Shown here: piece after piece, positions 26,360 through 45,492 of the stretch
Layout of the letters: the number at the start of each line of letters is the position of its first letter
How positions within the stretch are numbered: the first letter of the stretch is position 1
Source: Neelides folsomi
Lineage: Eukaryota; Arthropoda; Collembola; Neelipleona; Neelidae
Assembly (NCBI GenBank): GCA_034687125.1
Contig: JAQGBZ010000329.1
Span: 1 to 64,000 of the forward strand
Reading direction: 5' to 3'
Length of the DNA: 64,000 nt
Program-made: the position numbers and the translations under genes
Notes under the pieces: model-generated
Seen by the model: the letters and a program-made list of their open reading frames with translations, nothing else
Told to the model about the DNA's origin: nothing
Databases searched by the model: none

Positions 26360-27553
26360 ATGGAATCAAATAATAAGTGGAAATTATTCTTTTTCACTTT
26401 TCTCTTCCTCCTATTTGAGACTTCCCAATGTACAGAGCTTTTAGAGCCACAAGTTAAAGATCAGCGTAATCAAGAAAATGCCGAAAATTATTTTGCTGAA
26501 GAAGAAAGGGTATGAAAGAAATTATATGTATATCTATAAACTTATAGGTTTTGTAAGCTCAATACTCTCAAATATTTGTATAAGTAACTAATTTTTGTCT
26601 AACTTAATTCATTTTAGGCTAAAAAAGAAGTTCCAGAAAGCGCAAAGGATTTAAAACTGAATCTTGAGAAGGAAGATTTTTTCATTCCTTTTCTTGACAG
26701 TGGAATGCTCGCTCTTCATGAGCAAATGGAATATGCGAATTTGAGCTCTATTTGTCTCCCAGACATAGATCATGAATTTACGAAAAAAGCTATTTTCATC
26801 TCTATGCATGGAGATTTTCATTTGAGGAATGGAACTCTTAACGGGCTAAACACCCTCAGGAGAATTTCTATTCTTAACTCTTTCACTAAGGTATGTCCAA
26901 TATTGAAGATCAAGTTAGGGTAATAATTTAGAAGGAAACGGGATTAGCTATAGATGTAAATTTTTATGGGTATAAAGTCCATTTGTTTTGGTATGTTAAT
27001 AGCTTGAGGAAATTGGTGCTTATGGAATCAACGTTGAAGTCGGGTTCTACAAATTAGCCTTCGAATATGATGCATTGATAAAGTTCATGAAAATGAGGCC
27101 TAATGGTAAACTGATTGGGACTCTTTCGGATACAAAGATCCAAATGAGGTTGAAATTCAAAAAGAAGGCTGGAATTATTGAGATTCGAGAAGTAACTTTA
27201 TTAAATATCGGAGAACTGAAGGTATATCTGGTTGAAGGCGGCGCTATAATGAATTCAATTTCTAAGGTATGTTAACCTTTATACTTTTTATAACTTTCTG
27301 TGTATCACTAATTTTTAAATATGTAAATAATATAGAATATATTTTTATGAGTATAATATCATTTTTTTAGTCGAATGATTTAACAATTAAAATTCGCGAG
27401 CCGTTATTGAAAATCCTCAAACCGAAGCTTGTCGAGTTCTTCAAAGATAATGTTGTGAAGAAAATTGCATTCCCAGGAGATTTTCACATTTTAAAGATGC
27501 CTATTGAAAACTTTTTGAAAACTAGCGATGAACTGAATGAGGAATATCTATGA
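26360..27553 (+). CDS. Secreted protein, possibly lipid-binding (group 7 allergen / JHBP-takeout-like)
   Basis: Four exons (26360-26509, 26618-26890, 27003-27266, 27371-27553), all joined in phase 0, give 289 residues. The N-terminus is a signal peptide (LFFFTFLFLLFETSQC). An acidic linker follows, then a domain of amphipathic strands and helices with few cysteines: FISMHGDFHLRNGTLNGL, GINVEVGFYKLAFEYDA, KIQMRLKFKKKAGIIEIREV, and a final helix KPKLVEFFKDNVVKKIA. This pattern resembles the BPI-like elongated fold of dust-mite group 7 allergens and juvenile-hormone-binding/takeout proteins, which carry lipids outside the cell, but I see no decisive motif. A poly(A) signal AATAAA lies at 27588-27593. 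It is tail-to-tail with COG5, with only about 200 bp between stops. The gene is well supported; the family is an inference. Confidence 0.85.
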
Positions 27554-27752: not shown

Positions 27753-30700
27753 TCATGAATTATGATTAGCATTGAGGCCTTTTTGAAGCGTAGCAAACAC
27801 GTGCGGGTAAATTGGATCAAATTCGGCTTTTCCTGAACTTGTCACGTTGTGAACGTAAGTTTCTAATGTGGACGCGAGGAGTTGAAGCCGATCCTTTTCT
27901 TGTTTATGTTCATCCAACCATTTGGAATATCTCGTTACTGACCAGCCATTCGACTAAATTTTTTAAAAAGATTAAATAAATTAAAATTGTAGTATTTAAT
28001 TATTAGTTTTGGTTAATCCTACATTGTCAAAAATATCAACTTACTAAATGCGGAAGTTTAAGGTCTCCATTTGAAAAAGAAAGCATAACATGGACAGCCA
28101 TTGAAAATGGAACAGCTTGACCCAATAAATTAGATTCGGAAAATTCCTCAGATTTTAACATTAGGAGTGATTTGAATCCTCTAAGCATTTTGAACGATCG
28201 ACCAAGTTCAGATAAAACTGGACAAATTGGTGTAAGAGCAACTTCCAATTGATTGATATCTGCAAAGATTTGTGTTTTCGTCGAATTTGTTTTGATTGAA
28301 TTGAGCATTGATACATTCCAAGTAAATAACTCAATCGTTCGTTCGGCTAATTTTCTTCCACTATTACAAAAATAAAAAATAGCATGTAAATAGCTTTGAT
28401 AAACACAAATGTTTACATAAGAAAATTCTTATGTAGTTTTACATTTTAGGTATTCATGAATCATTTCGTATTACCACAATTGAACCAAATCAACGGATTC
28501 GAATAGGGAAAGATAATCTTTATTCGCCCGAAATATAAAGCTTTGGAGTTCTCCCATATAAAGTGAATATTCGGTTGCTTTTCTCCTGAAACACGATTAG
28601 AAACAAAATTTCATACTTAATAACTTTACTTTACTAAAATAAATATGAATACATAAATCAAAATTGATTTCAATTAACCTTTGAAAATTCTCATTATGCA
28701 TTGTGAGAATAATGGCTTCAATTGCATCAAAAATTCCATCAATGAGGGAGGAAATACTATTATTCATTAAAGGTTCAATTCCTTCCACTTCAATCGACAT
28801 TGATAAACATTGGGACTTCAAATATTCCAAGTTGTTCAATACACCAGCATTGGAAATTTGACTCTCAGTAGCTGGACCTAAATATTTAAGTGTCATTGAA
28901 TAAAAAATTAGCAATTTAATATAATTGAGTGATATAACTATAGATTGTTAATTGTGTTCTTTATAAAATTCTTTGCATTTTTATTATTTCTTACCAATAA
29001 CTTGAGTAGAATTTCCATCATTTACAATGAGCTGCTCAGATCGAACACAAATCAAACTAATTGTTTTTGAAATGTTTCGAGAAATGAGCTTTTTAAGTGT
29101 TAGATCATCAGCTGTGTTAAGCTCAGCAAACATGATTTTTATAAGACTGTCAATGCCTTTCTTGGTGGGATTGCCATTAGAAAAAGTTCCATTTACTGCA
29201 TCAAACAGTTTGGCAAGTGATTTAGACAAAAAGCCTTTTTCGTAATTTGACAAAACGCCTCTTAATCCGGATTGAAAACTACGAATAATTAAAATTTTTA
29301 ACATTATTAACATCTCATTTACTAAATTTAAAATCATTTGGAATTAAATAATTGACATGAGTTTGTAGTTATTGCTCACTTGATTTTCAACTCTGGGAAT
29401 TCGATAGAATCTTCAATTTTCTTGCCCAAGTTTGTAAATAGTTTCAAGAGTCTCGGAAATTCTTTTTCAAATGTTGTATTGATGAAATCAATTTTAATTG
29501 AACAAAAATGATGCAGAAGAATGTCAAGAAGATTATTCCAAAACTTTTGCCATTTTGAAACATCCAACGATTCAGAGAATCTCAAATTAGAGAGGCAATC
29601 TTTTTCTTTGGTGATTGTTCCCCACAGAAGTTTAACCTACGATTCATAAATTTTAATTTTTAAGTTAATGAACACAATAATCACAAAACTAACAATAAAG
29701 TAAATAAACAAATTTAATAATTTTACCTTTTCACAATTGGAAAGTATTTTCAAAGATAAACTATCCAAATTGGACCAAATCTGATTGCTGATTTGGGTAT
29801 TTATATTAGACCCGTGTCCTGTATTGAATCCTCGACCAGGTCCTTTAGTTTTAAAGTAGAGTTAATAATGAATAAAAATTTAACTTTGAATTTTTATATA
29901 AAATTTCATAAATGTCAATTTGATATTTTTATACCTTTTCCCTTTAAATCCATTGATTGTTGGATTCTAATCTGAAGTGCATTTTTCACGTCCCGTTCAA
30001 TAGTTTTCTCGATATCAGAAAATATTTTATTGGTTTTTGATTCAAGGACATTTAGATTGACAAAAATTTGAATTGCATTTGGAATCTAAAAAGAAGTTGA
30101 ATAATAAAAAAATTTTAACACACAATAACACTAACATTGCTAAGTTTTTAATATTAGTTATAATGGTTTTTACCTGAGCATAAGAATTCGAATTCAATCC
30201 TTGCATCAGCATATTCTCTGTTTGCTTTTCAATGTTTTGCCTGAGTGATGTTGCTTTTTCCAAATGTCCTTTTAAGATTGTCAATGGCGGTTCTTGTGTG
30301 CAAAGATATTCTGTTTAAAAAATCGTTTAATTTTCATTAATATCATTAAGCTTGTCAAATAATCATTATTCATAATTATGATAGCTGATAGAAATATCCT
30401 CCGCTTGCCAATTTGTGAAATGTTAGTCGCAATTTCAGCAAGATTGTGCTTCTGATTATCAATCTTTGAATCAATCTCAAAAACCTTCTTAACTCTTCGA
30501 ATGGCTTGTCGTGCTTGATAATAATTCTCAAGTTGAATAACTTTAGCTTCATATTCATTGTAAAGGTTGTTGACTTGTGAATGAAGTTTGTCAATCTGAC
30601 AAGCATTAGCTCTTGCATGACAGCTCTCAACCATTTTCTCCATCATTTCTACATTTTCAGTTTGAGCCAAAAGGTCTCCGTGATTATTTGTCACTTGAGC

Positions 30701-31797: not shown

Positions 31798-33062
31798 ATG
31801 GTCCATTGGCAATATTCGCATATAAAAATTGGCAAACAGAATCTTTTTATAATTTTTCTCCTTTTGGTGTTAAAAATTGAAAAATCATTTGAAGTCCCTG
31901 CAAGGAGTGGGATACTGATTGCTCGACGCATTGCTGAAACTCATCCAAATCCTCCATCAAATTCGCATTATTATCAAATCCTCCCAGAACGTAAGTTTGC
32001 ATTCGATATGTTAAAAGGTCTTGTCGGCGGAGGCGGAGGCGGAGAAGATTCCAGCACAGGTGATTCAAATACCAATGCGAATTACGACAATTCTGCTACT
32101 GGCGGTTACGGGGATGCAAATCCCGTAGGGCAGATGAATAACAACAATGTTGGTGGCGGATACGAAGGCGGAAAAGAAGAAGGCGGATATTCAAACAATC
32201 AGCAAGGAGGATACACAGAACAGCAAATGCAACAAATGATGCAAATGCAAGCAATGATGTACCAACAAATGATGCAACAACAAGGTTACTCAGGAGGTCA
32301 AAATGATCAATCTGGATATGAAAGTTCAACAAGTTCCACAGAAGGAGGATATGATTCTAACCAACAAGGATATTCTGGTGGAGAACAACAAGGTGGATAT
32401 GATGGAGGAACGGGAGGAACCGAAGGAGGAACAGCAGAAGGAGAAACACCCGCAGAGGGAGAAGGCGGTGGAGAAAATGGCGAAGAAGGACTTCTTGGCG
32501 GATTGGGAGGAATTGCGTCTTTTATGCAAGGACTTGGAGGAAAATTTTCAATGTTGAAAGAGAAAATTCAAGGGCTGGGTGGAGGACAACTCGGCGGTCT
32601 TAATGTAATGGGAGATATGAAAGAAATGATTACAAAAATGTTGGTCATTTACGCCCATACAATTTCAAACCTTACGGATGAAGTTACTCAAGAAGTTGAA
32701 AACATGTTCAACGTAAGACGTTTAATATTATTAAATAAATTATAATTTATGATTATGATTGCCATTTAAATAATTAGATAGCAAAATTCTACAATTTTTT
32801 AAAATTTTTTTAGAATATTCCAAGCTTGGGAGAACTCGCCAGACTCCCAGGCTTACAAAAAATCCCAGGAATTTCAAGTCTCAAGTCGGCCTTAGGAAAT
32901 GAAGGAAATGGAATAAGAGACAACGTGTCAATGGGGATGGTAATGAAACTCAAAGAAGAAATGATGGAAGCCCAAGAAAATGATAACAATGATAGACGTT
33001 CTTACTACGATGATCGAAATTACTATTTAAATGGAAATAACAACAATGGTGAATATTATTAA
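31798..33062 (+). CDS. Gly/Gln/Met/Tyr-rich secreted low-complexity protein
   Basis: Two exons (31798-32712 and 32814-33062, phase 0) give 387 residues. A hydrophobic stretch NLFIIFLLLVL near residues 16-26 acts as signal peptide or anchor. Next come an ARSGILIARRIAETHPNPPSN region, a Gly6 run, GGY repeats with Asn and Gln, a Met/Gln block (QQMQQMMQMQAMMYQQMMQQ), acidic Gly/Glu/Thr repeats, and a more ordered helical C-terminal part (MKEMITKMLVIYAHTISNLTDEV, then LARLPGLQKIPGISSL) ending in Asp/Asn/Tyr residues. No known domain is recognised. The composition suggests an extracellular matrix, cuticle, glue or silk-like role, but this is inference. An internal GTAAGT at 31991 lies in the open frame and is probably not used. 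It neighbours other secreted low-complexity genes at 36.5 and 39.3 kb. Confidence 0.85.
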
Positions 33063-33563
33063 CTGGTAAAATATATAAATTTTAATTTGGTGAATTTGAT
33101 CGTTAAAATTGGACTTTTATTCTTTTTCACATTTTAATTTTAACTATGAGCATCCAGCCAAACTTCATATACCAACCAAGCCTTGTATCAAACCCATTTA
33201 CTATAAATCTAGTTTTAATTGCACATGATGTTTTATTGTTATACTTTTGTATTTGATTGCTGAGATTAAAATCGATCTCTCTTTTCTCAAGAGTCAAATA
33301 AAGTAAAAACTAGTTTTGAATGCATTGTTTGGATTTAAAAGTGGTTAATATCATTAGCGTAAAAAAGAATTTATTTAGTTAATACAAATACTAGTTTATA
33401 TTTATAGAGTTTAAAGACATATAACACAACTACAATAAAATGTAATGTCAAATAAAATGTCAATAGGACAATAGTGTCAATACCTATCTGTATATAATAA
33501 ATTACATTTTATGCAAATACTTATAAAGAAAATAAGTTAAAATAATATATGAACTATTAACAT
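33063..33563. other. Convergent 3' intergenic region
   Basis: This is AT-rich sequence between the Gly-rich gene and the far 3' exon of the tetraspanin. AATAAA motifs near 33297 suit the plus-strand gene. No coding is seen. Confidence 0.6.
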
Positions 33564-33856
33564 TCATTTTGACTTTTTGCGATGGTGGTGGTGATGATGA
33601 TGATGATTGAGATTCTTGTGAGAAATTTTGTTCAGAATGGCTGGTGCACTTTTCCTAGCCGCCACTTCAACCTCTTGTTCCTCGGTTTGGATTTCCTTAA
33701 TTCTCTTTGCAGCTTCAATTAAGATTTTCAATCCTTTCTCCTTTTTCTTATGTGTTTTTGAATGATGGGCTTCTTCCTCTTCGGGATCATTTTTCTTCAC
33801 ATATATAACTTCTTCCTCTTCAAACTCTTTTTCGTTTTTGATGATTTTATCAAGTT
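33564..33856 (-). CDS. Alternative last exon of the tetraspanin: acidic, Lys-rich, His8 tail
   Basis: This open segment starts at a good acceptor (TTTTGTACAG) and runs 97 codons to a stop. It has ELDKIIKN, EEEE and EEEEAHHSK acidic blocks, a Lys-rich centre, and ends with eight consecutive histidines before RKKSK. It has no ATG of its own near the start. Splicing from 34013 (GATG|GTCATT, a weak donor inside the last tetraspanin exon) would join it in frame, replacing the last 31 residues that end at 33921. It may therefore be an alternative tetraspanin C-terminus, the true C-terminus, or an exon of a separate small gene. Transcript data are needed to choose. Confidence 0.5.
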
Positions 33857-33920
33857 CTGTACAAAATGACAATAAAGTCAATAAATAATATTTTGTAATA
33901 CACAATATAAATAGGTATAA

Positions 33921-35558
33921 TTAATTTGTCTCATTTGATAATATGAATTTGTATGTAAGCGGCTGTGGTTTTTTCTTATTTGGATAATGAATTAATAATA
34001 TTTGATAATGACCATCCAGCGTGGCTTCTTCCAAAATTTCATGAGCAAGTTGGTCAGGTTTTGTTTGTCTAATGTAATTGAGAACATCAACAGATTTAAA
34101 AAGGAATTCATGAACTTCCGTCATTGTTTTAAAAGTCTTCAGCTTCTTAATAATGTAATCTTTGACTTCTGGATTAAAATTCATATTATTTTGAAAATTG
34201 TCATCTTCTCTCAATTCATCCATAATGTCTTCAACGATGCTTCTCAACCTCTCGCTCGGCTTCCATTTGAAAAATAGCCAAAAGTAAACGGCATGAACAA
34301 GGAAAGAAATCAAGACGACCAAAATTCCAAAAGCAAGGTACACATAAGAGATTAACACCCTTCGACCCATATAATCCATCAACTTAGGAAGACAACCCTT
34401 CAAGTAAAAATTTCCGTAGGATTAAAACGCCTTTAACATTAAGTTATTTCAAAATTCTATTCATAAATCCTTCAATGCCCTTTATTGATCCCCTTACTTT
34501 TAGTATGAGAAAAGGGCTCTCCTTCTCGCACGGCTTTCTTCGACTCATTCCAAGATGAACACAACATGTGGCTGGAAGAACATCCACAAAGTCGGCTGGG
34601 CCATCGGCTCCACAACAGCTAAACTATTTATTTAATTGGAGAACCCTTAAGAGCTTTAATTCCCTTTGGACACTTTCAGAGGTTGAAACAAAGTAGAAGA
34701 AAATTTATAAATATAAAATTTATAAATACTTCTTCTTGAAGGAAATCAAGGTATATGGAAGAATCAGATTTCAATTTTGCGTCATCGCCATATTCATCAA
34801 TGTATGTTGACAAGTAGGATCTCAAATTCCCTTCGTTTCTGGCAAGAACGTTGAGAATTCCACCGATTACAACTGTCGCCATGATGAGGAAATGACCCGC
34901 TCCCATCTGCAAATCATGATCAATTCAGAATCACTGAATCTTATCAATTTAATAAGTAACACCAAAATGAACTACAAATATAATAAGAGAAAAGGATCAA
35001 ATAGACTTACAAATATAACAAATCCTCCTCGTTTTTTATCCGTTTGAAAGTTCGCCTTGAAGGCATACAATCCCACACATCCGGTTGACAGCAACAGTAT
35101 ACCAGAAATGCCAAATATCAATAATTCCCGATATCCCAATATCATCTTGAAAATTCTTATATTCTCAAAATATGCTATGAAAATAATATTAATTGTAATT
35201 TTATCGTTTTTAATATTATACAGATAGGTGATGAAATGATTCGTATGTTTAGTAATTTTTGTGACAAACCAGCAATTCCAAATGACAAAAAAATAATTCC
35301 AGCCAACTGAAAATTGACAACAGAATCTTTAATTCATTTATATAGTATTAAAGCTTATGCACAATGAAGCACGATATGATATTATGCCACGATATGATTT
35401 GTTTATTGGTAATAAATACATAATAGGAAAAAAGTAAATGCTATAAAATACAATCATACGATTAGTAAATAAATTGCTGCTTCAAGGAAATATCCTACAA
35501 AGTTAAGTCTCGACCCCGTACTGGATTTCGTCAATTCGCTGCACGCCTTCCAAAACAT
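33921..35558 (-). CDS. Tetraspanin with long C-terminal tail
   Basis: Six exons (35558-35460, 35306-35270, 35174-35011, 34906-34730, 34623-34498, 34397-33921) join in frame to 359 residues. Four membrane spans are seen at about 18-45, 63-83, 97-121 and 215-245. The large extracellular loop has the hallmark FSCCG (162-164), followed by GPADF, a second CC (179-180), and single Cys at 191 and 203, giving the six-cysteine pattern of tetraspanins. The C-terminal tail (about 115 residues) is much longer than usual and helical. Tetraspanins organise membrane microdomains with integrins and Ig proteins. I placed the start at the Met 17 residues before span 1; an acceptor-like CATAG lies upstream at about 35624, so an extra 5' exon is possible. 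An alternative 3' exon may follow at 33564-33856. It is head-to-head with the mucin-like gene. Confidence 0.88.
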
Positions 35559-36491
35559 AATGATTTCTCCCAAAAGAAATATCAAACTAACAATCGTGTA
35601 TAAGAGAGAAACCCCGTAAAGTTTCTATGAAAGAAAATCAATTCAAATTTAACGTTAGCCAATACAATGTAGGTAGTTTTACCATAATTTAAGAGATACA
35701 ATAATTATACGAGTTACTCTCTCGGCCACGGATCTAGGCAGACGAAAATTTCCCTAAATTGACATCAAGTAACTTTTTTTAAAGTTACATGGCAATTCAC
35801 TTTAAAAAAACTTACATGTTATATGACAATGTTACCCTACTTTCTCACATTAAAATAAGTAAAATGCATTATATTTCAATAGATTTATCTTGTTTTCATG
35901 CATTTATAATATTTTTTGTTTATCTGAGAAGAAATAAGGTAAATTAAAAACTCGTCCGCCAAGATCCGTGGTCGGGACAATATATAAATATTTTGAATAG
36001 GTAACTTTAAATGAGAAATTAAATTTTAAATTTAAATTTAAATTTTTAAATTTTATATCATCTTGGTCATAATTCTTATAATTTTATTATGGAGTAAAGG
36101 ATATTGGCATTTTGAGTTGACTTTTGTGTACCATTTGAAAGACGCACAAATACATATATCCTATATACCCAATACATATCAATACTTGTAGCTTTGATTA
36201 ATAAAGTCCTTTCGTATAATATACAATTATACCTATACATAGTTAGAATATGGTACATATTTAATACAGCTGAAAAATCCTTTAAGTTTTTTATGTTTAA
36301 TGCGCCAACGAAGTAAAGAACCCAACCCCTTTAATCCTTTCTTTAAAATAGTTTAGACAATTATGAAGTTTAAAGCGAGTCAAAAGGGTTAGGTGAAATA
36401 AAGGGTCACTTCAAATGTTTTAAACCGATCATTTCCTTTTGGACATTCCTTCAATCTTCACTTCTCATTGTCAGCCTATAAAAAAGTCAAA
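35559..36491. other. Divergent promoter region with inserted MITE-like element
   Basis: This lies between the start codons of the tetraspanin (-) and the mucin-like secreted protein (+). A roughly 258-bp element with terminal inverted repeats occupies 35721-35978. A pure A/T tract of repeated AAATTT lies near 36020-36056. A TATAAAAAA at about 36478 is only some 15 bp before the plus-strand ATG, too close to be its ordinary TATA box. Confidence 0.6.
35721..35978. repeat. MITE-like element with ~27-bp terminal inverted repeats
   Basis: The left end CTCGGCCACGGATCTAGGC (from 35721) and the right end, read in reverse (GTCCCGACCACGGATCTTGG, to 35978), are imperfect inverted repeats that continue into GCGGACGA-like sequence. 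The interior is AT-rich and non-coding. A partial copy occurs at 12-127, so this is a dispersed family. The insertion sits inside the divergent promoter of two genes. Confidence 0.7.
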
Positions 36492-38423
36492 ATGAGAAAA
36501 TCATATTTGATATCAGCTTTATTAATTATAGGATCTTTATCCGAAATTAGTTCTTTTTCATACAACCGTAAGTTTACACACTTTTAAACTCAATTCACAG
36601 AGAACGATATTTGTATCCAATTTCTAAAATTAATGTTTTATTAATTTTAGAAATTGGATACAAATGTATGCTAACGATACAAATGGATACTAATGTTTTA
36701 TTAATTTTCAGGCTACAGTCTCAACAATAGAAAAAGTCATTATAAAGACTCGGCTTCTGCATCTGGAGATGGATCGTCAGGTTCTTCTGTTACCGCTGTA
36801 AGTTCAGCTACTGGAAATCAACAAACTTCATCGAGTTCAAGCGTTTCATCATCATCTACAAGTTCATCCAATGCAGTAGCAACTGCAGGAGGAGGAAACC
36901 CAACAGCTTCCGGTGGTGGCGGTGGAAGTACTACAACTTCAGGGGCGACTTCTGAAACTGGGTCTGGACAGGCTTCTTCAGGCTCAACTGGAACGGTTAC
37001 AAGCAGTGAAACATCTTCAGGAGCAGGATCAGCTTCAACAGGTTAGTAAAACATAAATTATAACTAATAATGTACCATATTAGCATAATAAAATTAATTA
37101 AATATAGCACTTTATTCAAAAGCTAATAAATATAATTTTTAGGAACTTCAACTGGAACGGCGACTACAGCAGCACCAAACACAACACCATCTCCAACACC
37201 CACTGTAACGTTTCCAACTCAACCACCAGTAACTCAAGGACCTACAACCGTAGCACCACCACCAGGTTCAGGATCAGGGAGCGGTGGGAGCTCCGCTGGA
37301 GCTGGAGCAGGAGCGGGAGCAGGTTCAGGATCAGGGAGCGGTGGGAGCTCCGCTGGAGCTGGAGCAGGAGCAGGAGCAGGTTCAGGATCAGGGAGCGGTG
37401 GGAATGGATCTGGATCTGGGTCAGGGTCTGGGAGCGGATCCGGTTCGGGTTCTTCAGGAGGAGGAACGACACCAACAACGCCAACTCCCACTCAACCACC
37501 AACTCAGCCACCCACTCAACCACCAACTCAGCCACCCACTCAACCACCAACTCAGCCACCCACTCAACCACCAACTCAGCAGCCCACTCAACCACCAACT
37601 CAGCCACCGACAGGAACGCCGGCGCCACCAGGAGGAGCAAGTAATATTAGACATTATTTAATGCCCATTTAAACATTTTTGCGAAAACCTTTTAAATTAT
37701 TTGAATTTAATTATTTTATCCCTAAATGCAAACTAATTTTATGATTACAGATAGTGCAATAGGTAGTGGAAGTTCAATTTCGACGGGCTCATCAAGTAAT
37801 GCAGCGCAAGGAGCTGCAACTGGGACAGTCTCTGGTACTGGATCTGGAAGTACGGGAAATGCAACTGCACAAGCTGGCCCAAATACCATTGCAACAGGAA
37901 GTGGAGAGGGCTATACTGAAGGAAGTGGAATTGCTGAAGGTATAGGAAACACTGGAGCTTCAGCAGCTTCACAAAGCAATGGAACTACCGAATCAGACGC
38001 ATCTGGAGCAGTGGACACAGTTCCATGCATTGGTATATAACAATTATCATTTTTATTAAAAAAATTATTAAATCTTGTGACTTATATATTAACATATGGA
38101 ATGGATATAATTTAACTGTTTTTTAATCAGGTGTATCACAAGCTTCTGGAATGGGAGGCGGAGATGGACAAGGTTCGGCCGCTGGAACGGGGCACAATTC
38201 ACATGCTGACGCTTCAACTGTAGATAATGGAACAAGCGATGCAAATGCAATGGCCAGTGGAGCTCAAAATTGCAATACTGGAACAGCAAGCGGAGGAGGG
38301 ACAGGTTTCGGGGCCGCAGCTGCCAACGCAGGTTCTGCTGGACCTACAAGCACTGAAACATTGGATAGCGGAAGTGCTGGAGGAACAGCAAGTACTAATA
38401 GTTCGCCTAATACTTCTGGATAA
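36492..38423 (+). CDS. Secreted Ser/Gly/Ala/Thr-rich mucin- or silk-like protein
   Basis: Five exons are needed (36492-36567, 36712-37041, 37143-37640, 37751-38032, 38131-38423), and every intron is phase 1. The product is 492 residues. A signal peptide is clear (YLISALLIIGSLSEISSFS). The rest is low complexity: SSSSSVSSSSTSSS, a 19-residue tandem unit of GSGSGSGGSS plus AGAGAGA, a poly-GS stretch, ten or so PTQP/PTQPP repeats likely to be O-glycosylated, and further Gly/Ser/Thr segments with TATAQAG and SGAVD. Cysteines are almost absent (one at VPCIG, one at QNCN). No conserved domain is recognised. Likely roles are silk, adhesive, mucus or eggshell matrix, by composition only. An AATAAA lies about 10 bp past the stop. 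The symmetric phase-1 exons permit expansion by exon duplication. Confidence 0.88.
36609..36665. repeat. Perfect 25-bp inverted repeat in intron 1, with duplicated splice-acceptor segment
   Basis: Arms at 36609-36633 and 36641-36665 are exact reverse complements around a 7-nt loop TGTTTTA. The loop and right arm segment TAATGTTTTATTAATTTTAG is repeated almost exactly 60 bp downstream as TAATGTTTTATTAATTTTCAG, where it forms the real acceptor of exon 2. Confidence 0.85.
37265..37400 (+). repeat. 57-bp tandem repeat coding for a 19-residue Gly/Ser/Ala unit
   Basis: Units at 37265-37321 and 37322-37378 differ by a single base (AGCGGGAGC against AGCAGGAGC) and a third partial unit follows from 37379. 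Near identity at the DNA level shows recent duplication or homogenisation within the exon. Confidence 0.9.
37487..37606 (+). repeat. Five 24-bp tandem units coding for PTQPPTQP
   Basis: The unit CCCACTCAACCACCAACTCA plus GCCA repeats exactly from 37487 with one variation in the fourth copy (CAGCAG). The encoded Pro/Thr/Gln track is a typical extended, O-glycosylated spacer. Confidence 0.9.
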
Positions 38424-39331
38424 AGAAATCAAATAAAAAATAGACATTTATAGTACTATATTTAATTAACAAATCTTAACTAATAAATCTTGACATTAAT
38501 ACAATTTATGCATTGGCCCTATACGAAATCAACTTTATTCTTATCATAATCTCATATACCATAATACAAATACTAGGTATGTACATATTATTATGTAGAG
38601 TAATCATTAATCATACAAAAATAATAAATATCTCAATGTCAATATTTTCAATATTAATACTGCGTTTGTTAGATTCTAATTAGAGAACCAATATCCTCAA
38701 TATGCATTGCATGATGTGGCCCCAACTTTCCAAAATAAGTGATCAAATTACTGATATTTTTTCTTTTACCCAATCTGTTAATACTCGAAGTTTTTGGTTT
38801 TCTCCCGACTCTATCTATTAGTAATCTGGTTTCAGACGGATTATAAAAGGGTTAATGAGGAAAACCTTTTCAACACTCTCAAAGAACCTTTTAAAACACT
38901 GACCTACAAGTAAATGTATGGTTAGCTAATTCAGACATAAACCTAAAAACCATAAAGGTTATAAACCCATAAAATAAAATGAATGCTCCTACAAATACCA
39001 AAAAGGGTTAACAATATTTTTACATTGAGCATTGTACAGTATTTTGTACATTACTTGAAGCTTGAAAGTAAGAAAATAAAATATGAATTTTTCTTTACAA
39101 ATGGCAGCTTTCTACACATACATAATATATAGCTATGTATGTATGGTATATGCATGATTATAATTATAATAAAAATTATAGTTATTTTCTCTACTATACT
39201 ACTCAAGAAGAAAAAGAAAATTTTGAGTCTTAGAAGCATTAGTTGAATCTGGATCACCGACAAATTAAGACTTACCATAAGCTTATAATATCACCACTTT
39301 TAAATATTTCACTAAATAATTAGACATTACA
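38424..39331 (+). other. Intergenic region between two secreted-protein genes
   Basis: AT-rich, with poly(A) signals for the upstream gene near 38432. Frequent GTATGTA-type AT dinucleotide stretches occur around 39120-39160. A weak TATA-like TTATAATA near 39284 precedes the next ATG by about 50 bp. No coding is seen. Confidence 0.55.
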
Positions 39332-40018
39332 ATGAATTCTTTCCAAATACTTTTCCGTTTTCTCCTCCTTTCTCTAATGTTATCTTCTGGATTCTCCTTC
39401 CCTGCGTCTCTTAAGGAAAAAAGTAAATCGTTAAATAAAAATATAATGAAACATCAGTCGTAAAAAATGAAATACATACTCAAATTAACCAAATTCAAAA
39501 TTAAACTCATTTTTTAAAAATTTCCAATCTATCTGTTAATTACAGGTGGTGACAATGACAAGCAAACGAAAAACGTAGTTCAATCAAGTTCACAGGGATC
39601 TCACGTTGATTCAGCTACTGCTTCTCAAATGGCTATAGGAGAACTTGTAATCGGCGTGGTTATGGCTGGAACGGGATCTGAAGCTGATTCATTGTCATCC
39701 GCAAGTATCGGACCGTATCCTAGTGATGCATTTGGCGAAGCTGAATCACAAGCCACTGGAGTAGCACAAGATTATGCTTACGGAGAAGATTACGGGACGG
39801 GACAAGGATCGGGAACTGCCACAGGAGATTCTGCAAGTTCTGGAGAGACGTCGAGTACTGTTCAATCATCAAATCCAGCAGCTCCACAGGTCCAAAAACC
39901 TCAATCTCACTCTCATGGAAAACCAGCGAATCCTCCACTTCTTAAACCACCAGTACTTCCAGTTTTAACCAACCCTATTTTATCTACAGGGACTGGAACT
40001 GTAGTGAAATCCAATTAA
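39332..40018 (+). CDS. Small secreted Ser/Gly/Thr-rich protein
   Basis: Two exons (39332-39422 and 39546-40018) join by a phase-1 intron just after the signal peptide to give 187 residues. The signal peptide is QILFRFLLLSLMLSSGFSF. The mature part begins with Asp/Lys/Gln-rich sequence, has a short hydrophobic IGELVIGVVMAG, then Gly/Ser/Thr/Tyr-rich DYAYGEDYGTGQGSGTA, and a Pro-rich end (KPPVLPVLTNP). There are no cysteines in the mature protein. Gene architecture (signal exon, phase-1 intron, low-complexity exon) and composition match the gene at 36492, so the two may be diverged tandem duplicates or share a matrix. An AATAAA overlaps the stop region. Function unknown. Confidence 0.8.
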
Positions 40019-40787: not shown

Positions 40788-41018
40788 TACGAAGGGAATC
40801 TCATAAAGGGTGAGACCCCCGATTTATTTTATTTTCTGCTTCAATTAAAATCCGGCCATATAATAACTTTATAGCAAAACCATCAGAGAAAATTCACAAA
40901 AATTTTTGCGGATTTTCCTTGATGGTTCTGCTATTAAGTTATTATATGGCCGGATTTTTAATTCAAACAGGAGAGAAAATAAATCGAGGGTCTCACACTT
41001 TATGAGATCCCCATCGTA
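40788..41018. repeat. 231-bp imperfect palindrome (MITE-like) in zinc-finger gene 3' UTR
   Basis: Two arms of about 110 nt run as inverted repeats around a centre near 40903. Matching blocks include TACGAAGGG/CCCATCGTA at the tips, AATCTCATAAAG, GTGAGACC, CGATTTATTTTA, AATCCGGCCATATAATAACTT and CAAAAATTTTTG. Arms are about 90 percent alike by eye with small indels. The tips are flanked by TA, as expected for a Tc1/mariner-type target site. The element ends 15 bp past the zinc-finger gene stop, so it should be transcribed in its 3' UTR and fold into a long hairpin. Confidence 0.9.
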
Positions 41019-41033
41019 TATTAAAATTGCGAA

Positions 41034-44000
41034 TCACATATCTTCAGAGTCACCCTGTGGAAAAAATGACTCTATTTCAGGCTTTATGGTCATATTCTCA
41101 GTTTCAGGGATAATCTCTTCATTATTTTTATCCGCTTCATTCTCATTTAAATCATCAATTTGATTTGGCTCTTCTTGAATTTTCTTTCCAGCATTTTTCA
41201 ATAATTCTTTGTTCTTCGGATCATGAACAAAAGATTCCATTCCATATTTCTTCCCAAATCCTTTGATTCGAAATCCTCCTCGATTCTTCTTCTTCGCTTT
41301 CCCAAGAAGCTTCCCCATCTTTTTTCTCTTAAGTCTTCGTTTTTCATTCAACGGCATATTCAGGGTGTTGTATTCTGGACCAAGGTAAAATTTGTGATCT
41401 GGATGTCTTTTAAAATGAACTTGAATTGATCTCTTGTTGACAAATCCCAAATGTTCAGGAGGGCAGTAAATACATTCAATGGCCTTTTTCACAAGTCGAT
41501 CTTTTGTTGCTTCCCTATGTTTAGCAATATCTTCAGGAAACGTAGCAATAGATTCCTCTCTTGCTTTCTTCTCATTATCAAGCATGGCTTGATATTCGGG
41601 ATTTTGGGTCACGAGTTTATGTTCCTCAAGTTGTTGAATGTGTTTTTCAGAGAGTTGACCCAAATCCAAGCGAACCACATTAACTCCAAAACTATCCGCT
41701 GTATTAATGCATTCTTCTTCAAGTAGAATCAAACTTTGAGTTTTGGGCATACAAATTGGTTTATTATCCGAGTTCATTGGAACAGTTCTTCTTGCCATAT
41801 TTGGACGCGGTTGGTCATTTATAGGACCTGTGAGATCAGAAGCTCGATGACTCCTTTCATGATTCGATCTGTTTGAACTTGTTCTAAATGATCGAGAACA
41901 AAATCGGCATTTGTATTCATCTTCTTCTAGAAATAAAAATCATAACATTAGCTCATGAAAAATGAAATTTTATGTATTTAAGGAACACCCTGTGCATACA
42001 ATAAATTACATAATTATGTATATAAGGAATATCGTTGAGAATAAAATATTATACTTACTTGGATGCAATGTCAGGATATGTCTTTTAAGAATTTGACTGT
42101 TTTTTAATTTCTTATTACAGATTGGGCAATGCACTGATTTTGACTTTTCAGGCTTCTCATCCCCATTGAGTAAAAAGTGGCCAAAATTAGCTGTTTCTTC
42201 AGACTCTTGTTTCACATTTTGGCAAGTTCTGTAATGTTCTTTAAATCTTTCTGGAATATGAAGTCTGTGCTGAGCTGGTTTTATTGCTTTAGAGAACGGA
42301 ACATTTGGATGCTCTTTTCTAAAGTGAGCTAAAAATTCGTATTTCTTAAAAAATCCCAGAGTTGCAGGGCAGTTGACGAATGGAGGACAGCGGTAGTAAA
42401 ACCTCGGGTCGTGAGTTTTCGCATGTCTAGTCATATAACTTAATATTGAGAAAGGTCGTTCGCAAACGAAGCAATCGAAACTTGCGCTCCCCTTCATGTG
42501 ATATGATTTAATGTGATTTTGAAGACTCCAATAAGAAGCCAAAGTTTTTCCACACATCTATAATAAAAACATAAATAATAATAATAAATAAATTGGTATT
42601 TAAAATAGTTATTCTTAAATGGTAATTATAAAATATTTTAACTTACTTGACACGTTCTATCGGTGTCTTTCGCCATTTGTGAATTGTTAATGGCGCCTTC
42701 GCTGTATTGTGGTTGGGCTTCATTTTTAATGGGAATATAAAATCCAGAATCAGGATTTCGATGAAGCCTCTCGTGGCGATATTTGCTTGATTTCATTGAA
42801 AATCCACGAGAACAAAATCGACATCTAAATCTTCCAGTTTGGTTATTATTGGTCAATGGTCGAATGTTTCTTCCATTAAAAGTTTTGAGAATGGGAACAT
42901 TTTGAGTCTCATTCTTAGGAACGGGGTTTGCCAACAATTTTGAAAGAATTGTTGAATTTCTGCGTTGAATTGATGCAGCTGTCTTGGGTCGAATAGGAAC
43001 TATATAAAGTTAAATGAATCGTGAATCAAAAATATTTTTTGCATGCTTTTCATTATTTTAATATAATTTTATAATTTCCTTTCGTACTTAATTTATGAAC
43101 TGTAATTTCATGTTCCTTTTGAGCTCGTTCATTTTCACAAAATACATTACAAATAGAACATCTTGTAGCTGATTCATGCTCCTCATCCATATGTTGTTTC
43201 AGACCCCAATTTGAAAAAAACACTCGTCCACACTGAAAGTAAATATTTGTTGAGTTATATAAATAGATAAATATCTTTAAGGGTTATTGGTAAACTTATT
43301 TCTAATTAAAGTTATTTTTTAAACAAATATTTTAAATATGTAGAAAATAAAAATATTTGTGAATTACTTCACAAGGCCAAGTCGTCGTTTTAATGTCATG
43401 TTCAGGAGGGAGTTGAGGAAGGCTCTTATTTATTGGAATTTTTGCAATTTCAGATTTACTTGCAGTTCCAGAAAGATGAGTCACCCGAGTATGACGACTT
43501 CTATTTGACGAGTGTCGGAAACACTTATTGCAATATTTGCAAGGATATGGAAAGTCTTCAGGATCATACTCTTCTATTAAAAAGAAAGTTGATAATTTTA
43601 TAAATATAATCCATTTACTAAATTCATATTCAAAAATTTTTAAAAAACTTATAATAATAAAATATTACGTTGTCCTTTTGCAGTTTTGGTAGTGTTGGGC
43701 TGAAGATTCTCTCGTTGAACAGTCGCTTTTGATATCGAAATTGTACGAATCTGAATATTGGTGTTTCCCATACCAAATGCGTTTTGGACTCGTCTTTTTT
43801 GAGCTGATTCAACTTCTAAAATGTGATGTGGTTCATTTCTCACAGAATTATAATTATCCATATCATCATTATTTATATTATCGAATGGTTCAATTTCCAT
43901 CAAATGATCGGTCCCGAGTGGTTCGATTTCAATAGGAAGTCTCGAGAGAGAATACATTGAGTTGATCCTTGGTGTCGAAGAATCACCTTCGTTTGAGAAT

Positions 44001-44696
44001 TGCTGACCGTAAAGTTTGGGTCTCCATTCTGCAAAAATCACAATTGTCAATTATATCAAAATTTCTCATTAAACTAAATCTATCTTGTATGAAACATATT
44101 GTAATTATTATAGAATTAAAATTACTTAAAGTTAATAAAAAAATGATGTTCATACTTTCAGAAACTTTGTGACGAAAATTGTAAAATTGTTGATTTCTAT
44201 CCCCCCTTTGAAAATTTTGAATGAGATTACGTCCAACATCATCTCTCATGTGTTTGATCCTTTTTAATTTCTCAGAGCATTCGGAACAAAACACATTTGA
44301 AACAGTAGTAAATTCCTCATCGGGGTTGATTCCAAAGAGAGAGCAGAAAAGATGTTTAAGTTCTTTCACTTCTTTAGTAAAATTCTTGTGAAAAACAGTT
44401 GCTGATGGAAAAACTTGGCCTTTGCAAATGACGCAAGAATCATCTAGTTCCAAAGGATCTGGTTCTGGTTCGATGTATGTGATTTGATTTCCATCGTCAG
44501 TGAGTTCAAGTGGATTTCGGAACCCTTCAATGACATAACCATTGGAAGTTCTTACTTCATATGTTCCTTGAGCTTCGAATTCCATTTCGGTATTTAACAT
44601 TTCTTGGTTGAAATTCGTTGCATCATCAACGAATTGCCGAGATGTACCTTGGCCTGGATAAACCCTCATCGTAGAATTTGGCCGATGATAAACCAT
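41034..44696 (-). CDS. ZAD and C2H2 zinc-finger protein
   Basis: Seven exons (44696-44156, 44028-43669, 43573-43368, 43232-43088, 42999-42647, 42557-42059, 41926-41034) join in frame to 998 residues. A ZAD dimerisation domain sits at about 86-160 with zinc-binding pairs CVIC (88, 91) and CSEC (137, 140). Fingers follow at 312-333, 368-388, 394-415, 477-497, 534-555, 564-584, 592-618 (spacing unusual), 679-700, 708-728 and about 853-875. Fingers are scattered singly, not in one tandem array, with long linkers, so DNA contact may be modular. Two fingers (477 and 708) share CRFCSR and HER(L/S)H, hinting at internal duplication. A basic segment KRRLKRKKMGKLLGKAKKKNR near the end could be a nuclear signal. 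A 5' UTR exon probably joins at 44731. Likely a nuclear transcription factor; target unknown. Confidence 0.92.
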
Positions 44697-45492
44697 TTTG
44701 AATAATTCGGAGCATAAAAGTAAGAAGAAATCTGAAAAGCACAATAAGATCAAATGAGTTATCTTGATATATTGAGAAAAATTATCCAGAAAATTAAACA
44801 TGATCAATAAAGTTAAAACTTACTAAAATATATTCATTCTATAAGGTAATACCCCAAACACTATAGTGGACTAAGCTCTTTGTGACAAACTTATTAAAAT
44901 TTAAGCTTTTGATTGAATCTAAATGATCAAGTTCAGACAATTCAATATAATTTGTAATTGAAAAAATAAGAATCTTCGGGAACTACGATTTAAAAAGATT
45001 AGAGGAGAACACGAACGATGCGAAACGAAAAGTACAAAGAAGGTGACGTACTTAGCCAATCGATTGACGGTTATCAACGTTAACTTCGCTGCTAAAAATG
45101 ATTTACAATTTTTAACTATCCTCTTACAATGTTACAATGTTTCAATTTGTAAGAAAACGTATTTTAATTGAATATCCAGTGGGAAATATTTAAACTTCAC
45201 CACGAACGATTAACTTCGGCATTCAGTTTAGGATAGATACTTCAACTTCATGCAGCACACGAAGAATCCAGAATTGTAAATATAGCGAGAGTGAAGGGGA
45301 AGCTTCAAGGGCGAAATTTAAAGTGCAGCATTGGAGGATATTTCTTGGCCGCGTGCTCGCCGTGCTCTTCCACTTCCATTATTGTTTCACGAATCGGGTC
45401 GTAATATTAATTGTAAAGTTAGTTAAACAATGTTTAACTTATAAATTGTATTTAATCACACCAATAACATTCTCCCCCAACTAAGAATCAAA
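44697..45492. other. Divergent promoter region, zinc-finger gene / EXOSC10
   Basis: Start codons point apart across about 800 bp. The start side of the zinc-finger gene has a good acceptor (TTTTCAG) at 44732, so its leader is spliced and promoter lies further up, near 44830-45400. An E-box-like CACGTG is not seen and no TATA is clear. Confidence 0.55.

Follow-up and report, generated by a model that had tools for sequence, protein, structure and literature searches.

The 64,000-nucleotide stretch analyzed here (hereafter the window; positions 1 to 64,000 of the forward strand of contig JAQGBZ010000329.1, assembly GCA_034687125.1) comes from the springtail Neelides folsomi. Within 8.2 kb it contains three plus-strand genes, here called A, B and C, which probably encode secreted proteins that serve as structural parts of an extracellular material. 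Residues 84-126 of C and exon 4 of B are predicted to form beta-sheets, and exon 3 of B would serve as a mucin-like spacer; we put the probability of this interpretation at roughly 0.55. The cluster is a real and unusual one, and a sheet pattern of the silk type is seen in two of its presumed structural proteins. Part of the evidence for this interpretation is a regular alternation of small and other residues in the two candidate sheet-forming segments.

Gene models and coding evidence

All three models close without stops. Gene A (31798-32712 and 32814-33062; 387 amino acids) has two exons, the first encoding a signal peptide, a short non-repetitive part, a low-complexity core rich in Gly, Tyr, Gln, Asn and Met and the start of a Leu/Met-rich C-terminal part, and the second encoding the C-terminal 82 amino acids, stop included. 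Its single intron is in phase 0, follows the 915-nucleotide exon 1 and is bounded by GTAAGA...TTTTTTTAG, and polyadenylation-type signals lie downstream of the gene at 33265 and 33297. Gene B (492 amino acids) is built from five exons: a signal peptide exon (36492-36567) followed by a phase-1 intron; a Ser/Thr-rich exon 2 (36712-37041; 48% Ser+Thr), symmetric in phase 1-1; exon 3 (37143-37640), with Gly-Ser/Gly-Ala and Thr-Gln-Pro-Pro repeats, the candidate mucin-like spacer; exon 4 (37751-38032), with the alternating pattern at protein residues 336-368 and one cysteine; and exon 5 (38131-38423), the Gly/Ala/Ser/Thr/Asn-rich end, also with one cysteine. Since all four introns of B are in phase 1, its inner exons (330, 498 and 282 nucleotides) are symmetric. 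Gene C (187 amino acids) consists of a signal peptide exon of 91 nucleotides (39332-39422), a phase-1 intron, and a second exon (39546-40018) that carries a hydrophobic stretch at residues 59-70, the alternating segment at 84-126 and a Pro-rich C-terminus.

The six introns all have GT-AG ends, and AATAAA or ATTAAA is found within 400 bases 3' of the stop in each gene. Under a codon model derived from seven window stretches taken as coding, the log-odds of the modeled frame are the best of six for A (114.9 bits), B (115.5 bits) and C (41.7 bits), while no other frame exceeds -51.1, 72.2 and -21.1 bits, respectively; the proportionally smallest margin, that of B, is expected from its repetitive sequence. 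Signal peptides were judged from Kyte-Doolittle hydropathy rather than with a signal-peptide predictor, and the hydrophobic N-terminal 12-mers (3.2 in A, 2.3 in B and 2.5 in C) are compatible with them. Gly, Ala, Ser, Thr, Asn and Gln together make up 80% of B, 57% of C and 52% of A, the last being rich in Gly, Asn, Glu, Gln, Ser, Leu, Met and Tyr. No Pfam family matches any of the three proteins at E≤1, including chitin_bind_4, chorion, VWD, trefoil and peritrophin. Models, codon usage and hydropathy confirm the original prediction, made from the DNA letters, of three neighboring genes for low-complexity proteins with signal peptides and no recognized domain; clear homology to ordinary cuticle or vitelline families was among the findings that it had named as refuting, and no cuticle or chorion family appeared among Pfam matches at E≤1.

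A period-2 pattern of small residues in C and B

In residues 84-126 of C, Gly, Ala or Ser occupies almost every second position, with varied residues in between, so that splitting the segment by parity gives one face reading SGYSAGASAGADAGDGGGGAGS and another reading IPPDFEEQTVQYYEYTQSTTD. The same alternation is found at residues 336-368 of B, in exon 4. Two measures, a parity statistic (D) and the score of the best segment, were set against 2000 shuffles for each of three residue classes. For the Gly/Ala/Ser class, C yields D=1.27 (p 0.0005) and a best segment score of 31 (p 0.0005), and all six tests on the mature protein give p values between 0.0005 and 0.006. Exons 4-5 of B yield D=1.02 (p 0.0005) and a segment score of 18 (p 0.0075) for Gly/Ala/Ser, and a segment score of 21 (p 0.002) for Gly/Ala, with p values ranging from 0.0005 to 0.0075 across tests. 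Because exon 3 of B is composed of DNA repeats, these tests did not include it.

As a control we took 200 kb from 20 other contigs, at one fixed place in each, amounting to 0.27% of the 75.1-Mb genome. Among its 743 open frames the top score is 13 for Gly/Ala/Ser and 9 for Gly/Ala, against 31 and 26 for C and 18 and 21 for exon 4 of B. The two highest scores of the 1004 frames examined belong to adjacent genes, B and C, lying 0.9 kb apart.

Slippage of DNA repeats was considered as the origin of the pattern, and tandem- and direct-repeat searches give it no support for C and exons 4-5 of B. Tandem repeats and long direct-repeat families sit in exon 3 of B, where the Gly-Ser/Gly-Ala repeats have 57-nucleotide units and the Thr-Gln-Pro-Pro repeats units of 12 and 24 nucleotides; exons 4 and 5 are touched by a few short direct-repeat matches of two or three copies (25-30 bases). 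As no DNA repeat was found to produce it, the pattern draws on a wide variety of codons and residues, and to us this suggests selection at the protein level.

These observations bear on the possibility that the genes encode a lubricating or protective mucus, in which mucin-like glycoproteins, B above all, would hold water on a surface such as the gut, the ventral tube or the egg, and the alternation would have come about incidentally as low-complexity sequence drifted. B does recall the secreted mucins through its signal peptide, its tandem repeats rich in Ser, Thr and Pro, including the Thr-Gln-Pro-Pro array, its 36% Ser+Thr and 9% Pro, and its seven N-glycosylation sequons. However, the alternation of C and exon 4 of B exceeds shuffles, stands above the control frames and is not seen as DNA repeats; C has no sequons, and neither A nor C is mucin-like; none of the three proteins has a Pfam domain, mucin-type ones (VWD, trefoil, peritrophin) included, and other parts of B are rich in Gly and Ala. 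Mucus is an unlikely account of the cluster.

Gene A and the eggshell alternative

The core of A, encoded by exon 1, contains six Gly-Gly-Tyr motifs and a Gln/Met-rich run at residues 141-161, and identity autocorrelation over residues 77-250 is raised at lag 1 (z 5.3), lag 3 (z 2.9) and lag 4 (z 3.1). Gln/Met-rich repeats are also carried by Drosophila dec-1, a point in favor of an eggshell role. According to this explanation the cluster would serve a chorion or vitelline envelope, A forming a dityrosine-cross-linked layer from its Gly-Tyr and Gln/Met-rich sequence, and B and C supplying beta-sheet, amyloid-like parts. In the excerpted text of PMC13409908 dityrosine is said to harden the chorions of several insects, and PMC11641622 reports amyloid fibrils formed by s36, a chorion protein of Drosophila. 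With the Gly-Tyr-rich chorion and cuticle proteins of insects A shares the Gly-Gly-Tyr motifs, a signal peptide and low complexity, but it differs in its Leu/Met-rich C-terminal part and in having no cuticle or chorion Pfam domain. The absence of any chorion family among the Pfam matches, and of a promoter motif common to A, B and C, also speaks against an eggshell, which we regard as improbable.

Density of the cluster and relationship among its members

Low-complexity frames of this kind are concentrated in the cluster. Nine open frames of the window (at least 60 residues) contain a 60-residue stretch with 50% or more Gly/Ala/Ser/Thr, and eight of them lie inside the 8.2-kb region, namely six exon frames of A, B and C and two overlapping off-frame readings. 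Five frames reach the same level in the 200-kb control, one of which reaches 60%; the cluster therefore exceeds chance as measured against a control that covers 0.27% of the genome. The control frame that reaches 60% (L039, 5784-6329, minus strand; 182 amino acids, rich in Thr, Ala and Ser) has 93% Gly/Ala/Ser/Thr over 60 residues and is perhaps an off-frame reading of another repeat.

B and C have a common architecture, with a first intron in phase 1 directly after the signal peptide. The original prediction had also claimed a shared signal-peptide exon; the intron position and phase stand, but the exon sequence does not, since the best BLASTP match between B and C has E 0.48 and leaves the signal-peptide region without alignment. 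Exon 4 of B against C was the strongest of six pairs compared, the other five being weaker. Its local alignment scores 81, against a shuffle mean of 48 (z 4.2), a score reached by two of 500 shuffles and by one of 500 that keep parity. In 4000 parity-keeping shuffles it is reached 14 times when C is shuffled and 23 times when exon 4 of B is; when such shuffles are confined to blocks of 20 residues the counts rise to 1072/4000 (C) and 217/4000 (exon 4 of B), and block shuffles with three other matrices reach it 252 to 445 times out of 1000. A paralogy of B and C, promising at first, is hence unproven, the alignment being mostly explained by local composition, and the two appear to share an order of compositional zones rather than proven positions. 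A duplication among exons 2, 4 and 5 of B is not supported either (z 2.0 for 2-4, reached by 21 of 500 shuffles; -0.4 for 2-5; -0.8 for 4-5). With its phase-0 intron and different composition, A is not of one family with B and C by these tests.

It could be argued that the three are unrelated genes, fast-evolving or young orphans that became neighbors by chance and contribute to no common material. The differences of A in intron phase, composition and pattern favor this, as do a B-C alignment that does not rise above local composition, the lack of a shared upstream motif and the lack of detected relatives. Against it stand the density of such exons, far higher here than in the 200-kb control, and the fact that the top two period-2 scores of 1004 frames fall in adjacent genes. 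We consider chance neighborhood of orphans possible but doubtful.

Searches for relatives and comparison with known proteins

NCBIfam gave no match at 0.1 for the proteins. PHROGs, queried with A and C, gave none for A and a single match for C (E 0.16), and no relative was confirmed for A in viral and prokaryote collections or for C in a viral collection. No credible relative was found in the PDB with A, C and exons 4-5 of B as queries; the weak matches obtained, to an entry named as an influenza-type polymerase subunit for A (E 0.032), at E of at least 1.1 for C and of at least 0.11 for exons 4-5 of B, are taken as chance. In the springtail's own genome, among the best candidates scored, A and C have no match at E≤1 other than their own genes, and B matches itself and eight further rows on five contigs (E 7e-4 to 0.9), all aligning to residues 241-301, the Thr-Gln-Pro-Pro region. 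Among the literature matches listed, whose titles and abstract beginnings were available, no description of springtail silk-like proteins was found.

One of the closest known parallels is silk fibroin of the Bombyx heavy chain type, (Gly-X)n, which is secreted (as predicted here), rich in Gly, Ala and Ser and alternates small residues as do residues 84-126 of C and 336-368 of B. The differences are nonetheless considerable: C and B are short (187 and 492 amino acids), the pattern extends over just some 33-43 residues, varied polar residues make up the opposite face, and there is no very long repetitive chain with non-repetitive ends, long repeat arrays being confined to exon 3 of B. Fibroin-like alternation is found only in C 84-126 and exon 4 of B, and not in A or exon 2 of B. 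Of the original proposal of a silk, glue, mucus or eggshell matrix, the sequence supports secreted low-complexity structural proteins in general, and a silk-like character for C and exon 4 of B, by a pattern which the proposal had not named, but not for A.

Glycine-rich antifreeze proteins of springtails are another candidate, being Gly-rich, secreted (as predicted here) and of springtail origin. These proteins have Gly at every third position. B and C show no excess at lag 3 (z -0.3 to 0.0 for exon 2, exon 3 and exons 4-5 of B; -1.1 for residues 32-140 of C), and an antifreeze of this type was rejected for both.

Neighboring genes and genome context

The tetraspanin noted earlier amid the cluster is indeed there, between A and B on the minus strand (33564-35624, outer coordinates approximate, frames joined by eye; PF00335, E 7.6e-19). 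Its long charged C-terminal tail contains eight consecutive histidines close to the end; the gene is treated as a neighbor outside the proposed set. To the left of the cluster lie a COG5-like gene (PF10392, E 1e-6, just under its cut-off) and, on the plus strand at approximately 26618-27550, a gene of the group-7-allergen/JHBP-like lipid-binding type (PF16984, E 9.2e-16; JHBP below cut-off). To the right are one or more zinc-finger genes on the minus strand (41034-44819; Pfam matches below cut-off only), with what we take to be a ZAD-like N-terminus, and genes for a 3'-5' exonuclease domain protein (PF01612, E 4.2e-39), a ubiquitin hydrolase (PF00443, E 4.2e-23) and a vinculin-family protein (PF01044, E 3.5e-60). 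A near-palindromic element of 220 bp at 40795-41015, matching its own reverse complement at 86%, resembles a miniature inverted-repeat transposable element; five further contigs carry relatives of it that are shorter and match less well (73-84%). A scan for transfer RNAs under a bacterial setting called none in the window, where Rfam likewise gave no family at or above its gathering score.

In the rest of the assembly, the mitochondrial contig (G000:C742; L022, L023) comprises 15157 bases with 69% A+T and 22 called transfer RNAs, one without a clear anticodon; its gene order, with protein genes named by eye, is presumably the ancestral one of Pancrustacea. An odorant-receptor model has three genome matches in a six-frame search, which can miss intron-rich receptors, and we take two of them to be gustatory by their C-terminal motif. 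Odorant-binding proteins have two weak matches. According to the excerpted text of PMC5644144, the genome of the springtail Holacanthella yielded no odorant receptor. The 2-oxoglutarate oxygenase domain has eight genome matches on five contigs, one of which (L024, around G000:C223:19220-19549) is close to PDB entries 9ovh (E 6e-106) and 6jyv (E 3e-94) and was perhaps acquired horizontally. Globins have three matches, and therefore no large cluster like that of water fleas. Taken together, these features suggest a hexapod outside the insects and agree best with a springtail.

Proposed roles of the three proteins

Side chains along an extended strand alternate between two faces, and from the small face of the period-2 segments we infer that C and exon 4 of B contribute sheet-forming modules. 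The chain would run there as extended beta-strands, one face of which, almost only Gly, Ala and Ser, would give the sheets a tight face-to-face packing like that of fibroins, the other (Glu, Gln, Thr, Val, Tyr, Asp) being mostly polar. Small side chains favor tight stacking and beta-sheet formation in silks, as stated in the excerpted part of a review (PMC10512026). Exon 3 of B, with Thr-Pro and Gly-Ser, would form a flexible and probably O-glycosylated spacer that sits between the Ser-rich and the sheet-forming parts; exon 2, with its high Ser+Thr content, likewise resembles a glycosylated spacer. A, with its Gly-Gly-Tyr motifs, could provide a tyrosine-rich matrix cross-linkable by oxidases. 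Such a material would most likely belong to the surface of the cuticle or to a secretion that serves as a coating (egg, spermatophore or gland); in another springtail, Orchesella cincta, glycine-rich structural proteins are present in the cuticle, as given in the excerpted text of PMC9861782.

Several points weigh against this interpretation. Proteins of 187-492 amino acids are short for silk. Neither exon 2 of B nor A gives a period-2 signal in the shuffle tests (p 0.09 to 0.94), and the 400 bases upstream of A, B and C contain no common motif beyond chance. Single-sequence AlphaFold models return only helices for exon 1 of A (mean predicted local distance difference test, pLDDT, 40.9), least uncertain in the Gln/Met run, and no secondary structure for exon 2 of C (mean pLDDT 55.5); not being confident, they may be regarded as neutral, neither supporting nor excluding sheets. 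A frame outside the cluster without low complexity (28039-28428, minus strand), adjoining the COG5-like frame, has a Gly/Ala/Ser score of 16. It should be noted also that the residue classes were picked after viewing the sequences, and that the majority of control frames are unlikely to be genes, and still less likely to encode secreted proteins of low complexity; both circumstances weaken the period-2 p values more than the ranking.

A more specific version, which we hold to be quite unlikely, is that B and C are an undescribed silk-like beta-sheet pair that would have arisen in tandem and, together with A, would form a surface or secretion with nanostructure, for instance the water-repellent granules of the cuticle. 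Liquid-repellent surfaces are modeled on the cuticle of springtails, whose proteins are described just as glycine-rich in the excerpted text of PMC9861782. If secreted structural proteins are indeed what A, B and C encode, the cluster would provide named genes for the protein part of an extracellular material of basal hexapods, as well as short natural beta-sheet modules, with one clean small face and one mostly polar face, that may be handy for materials work.

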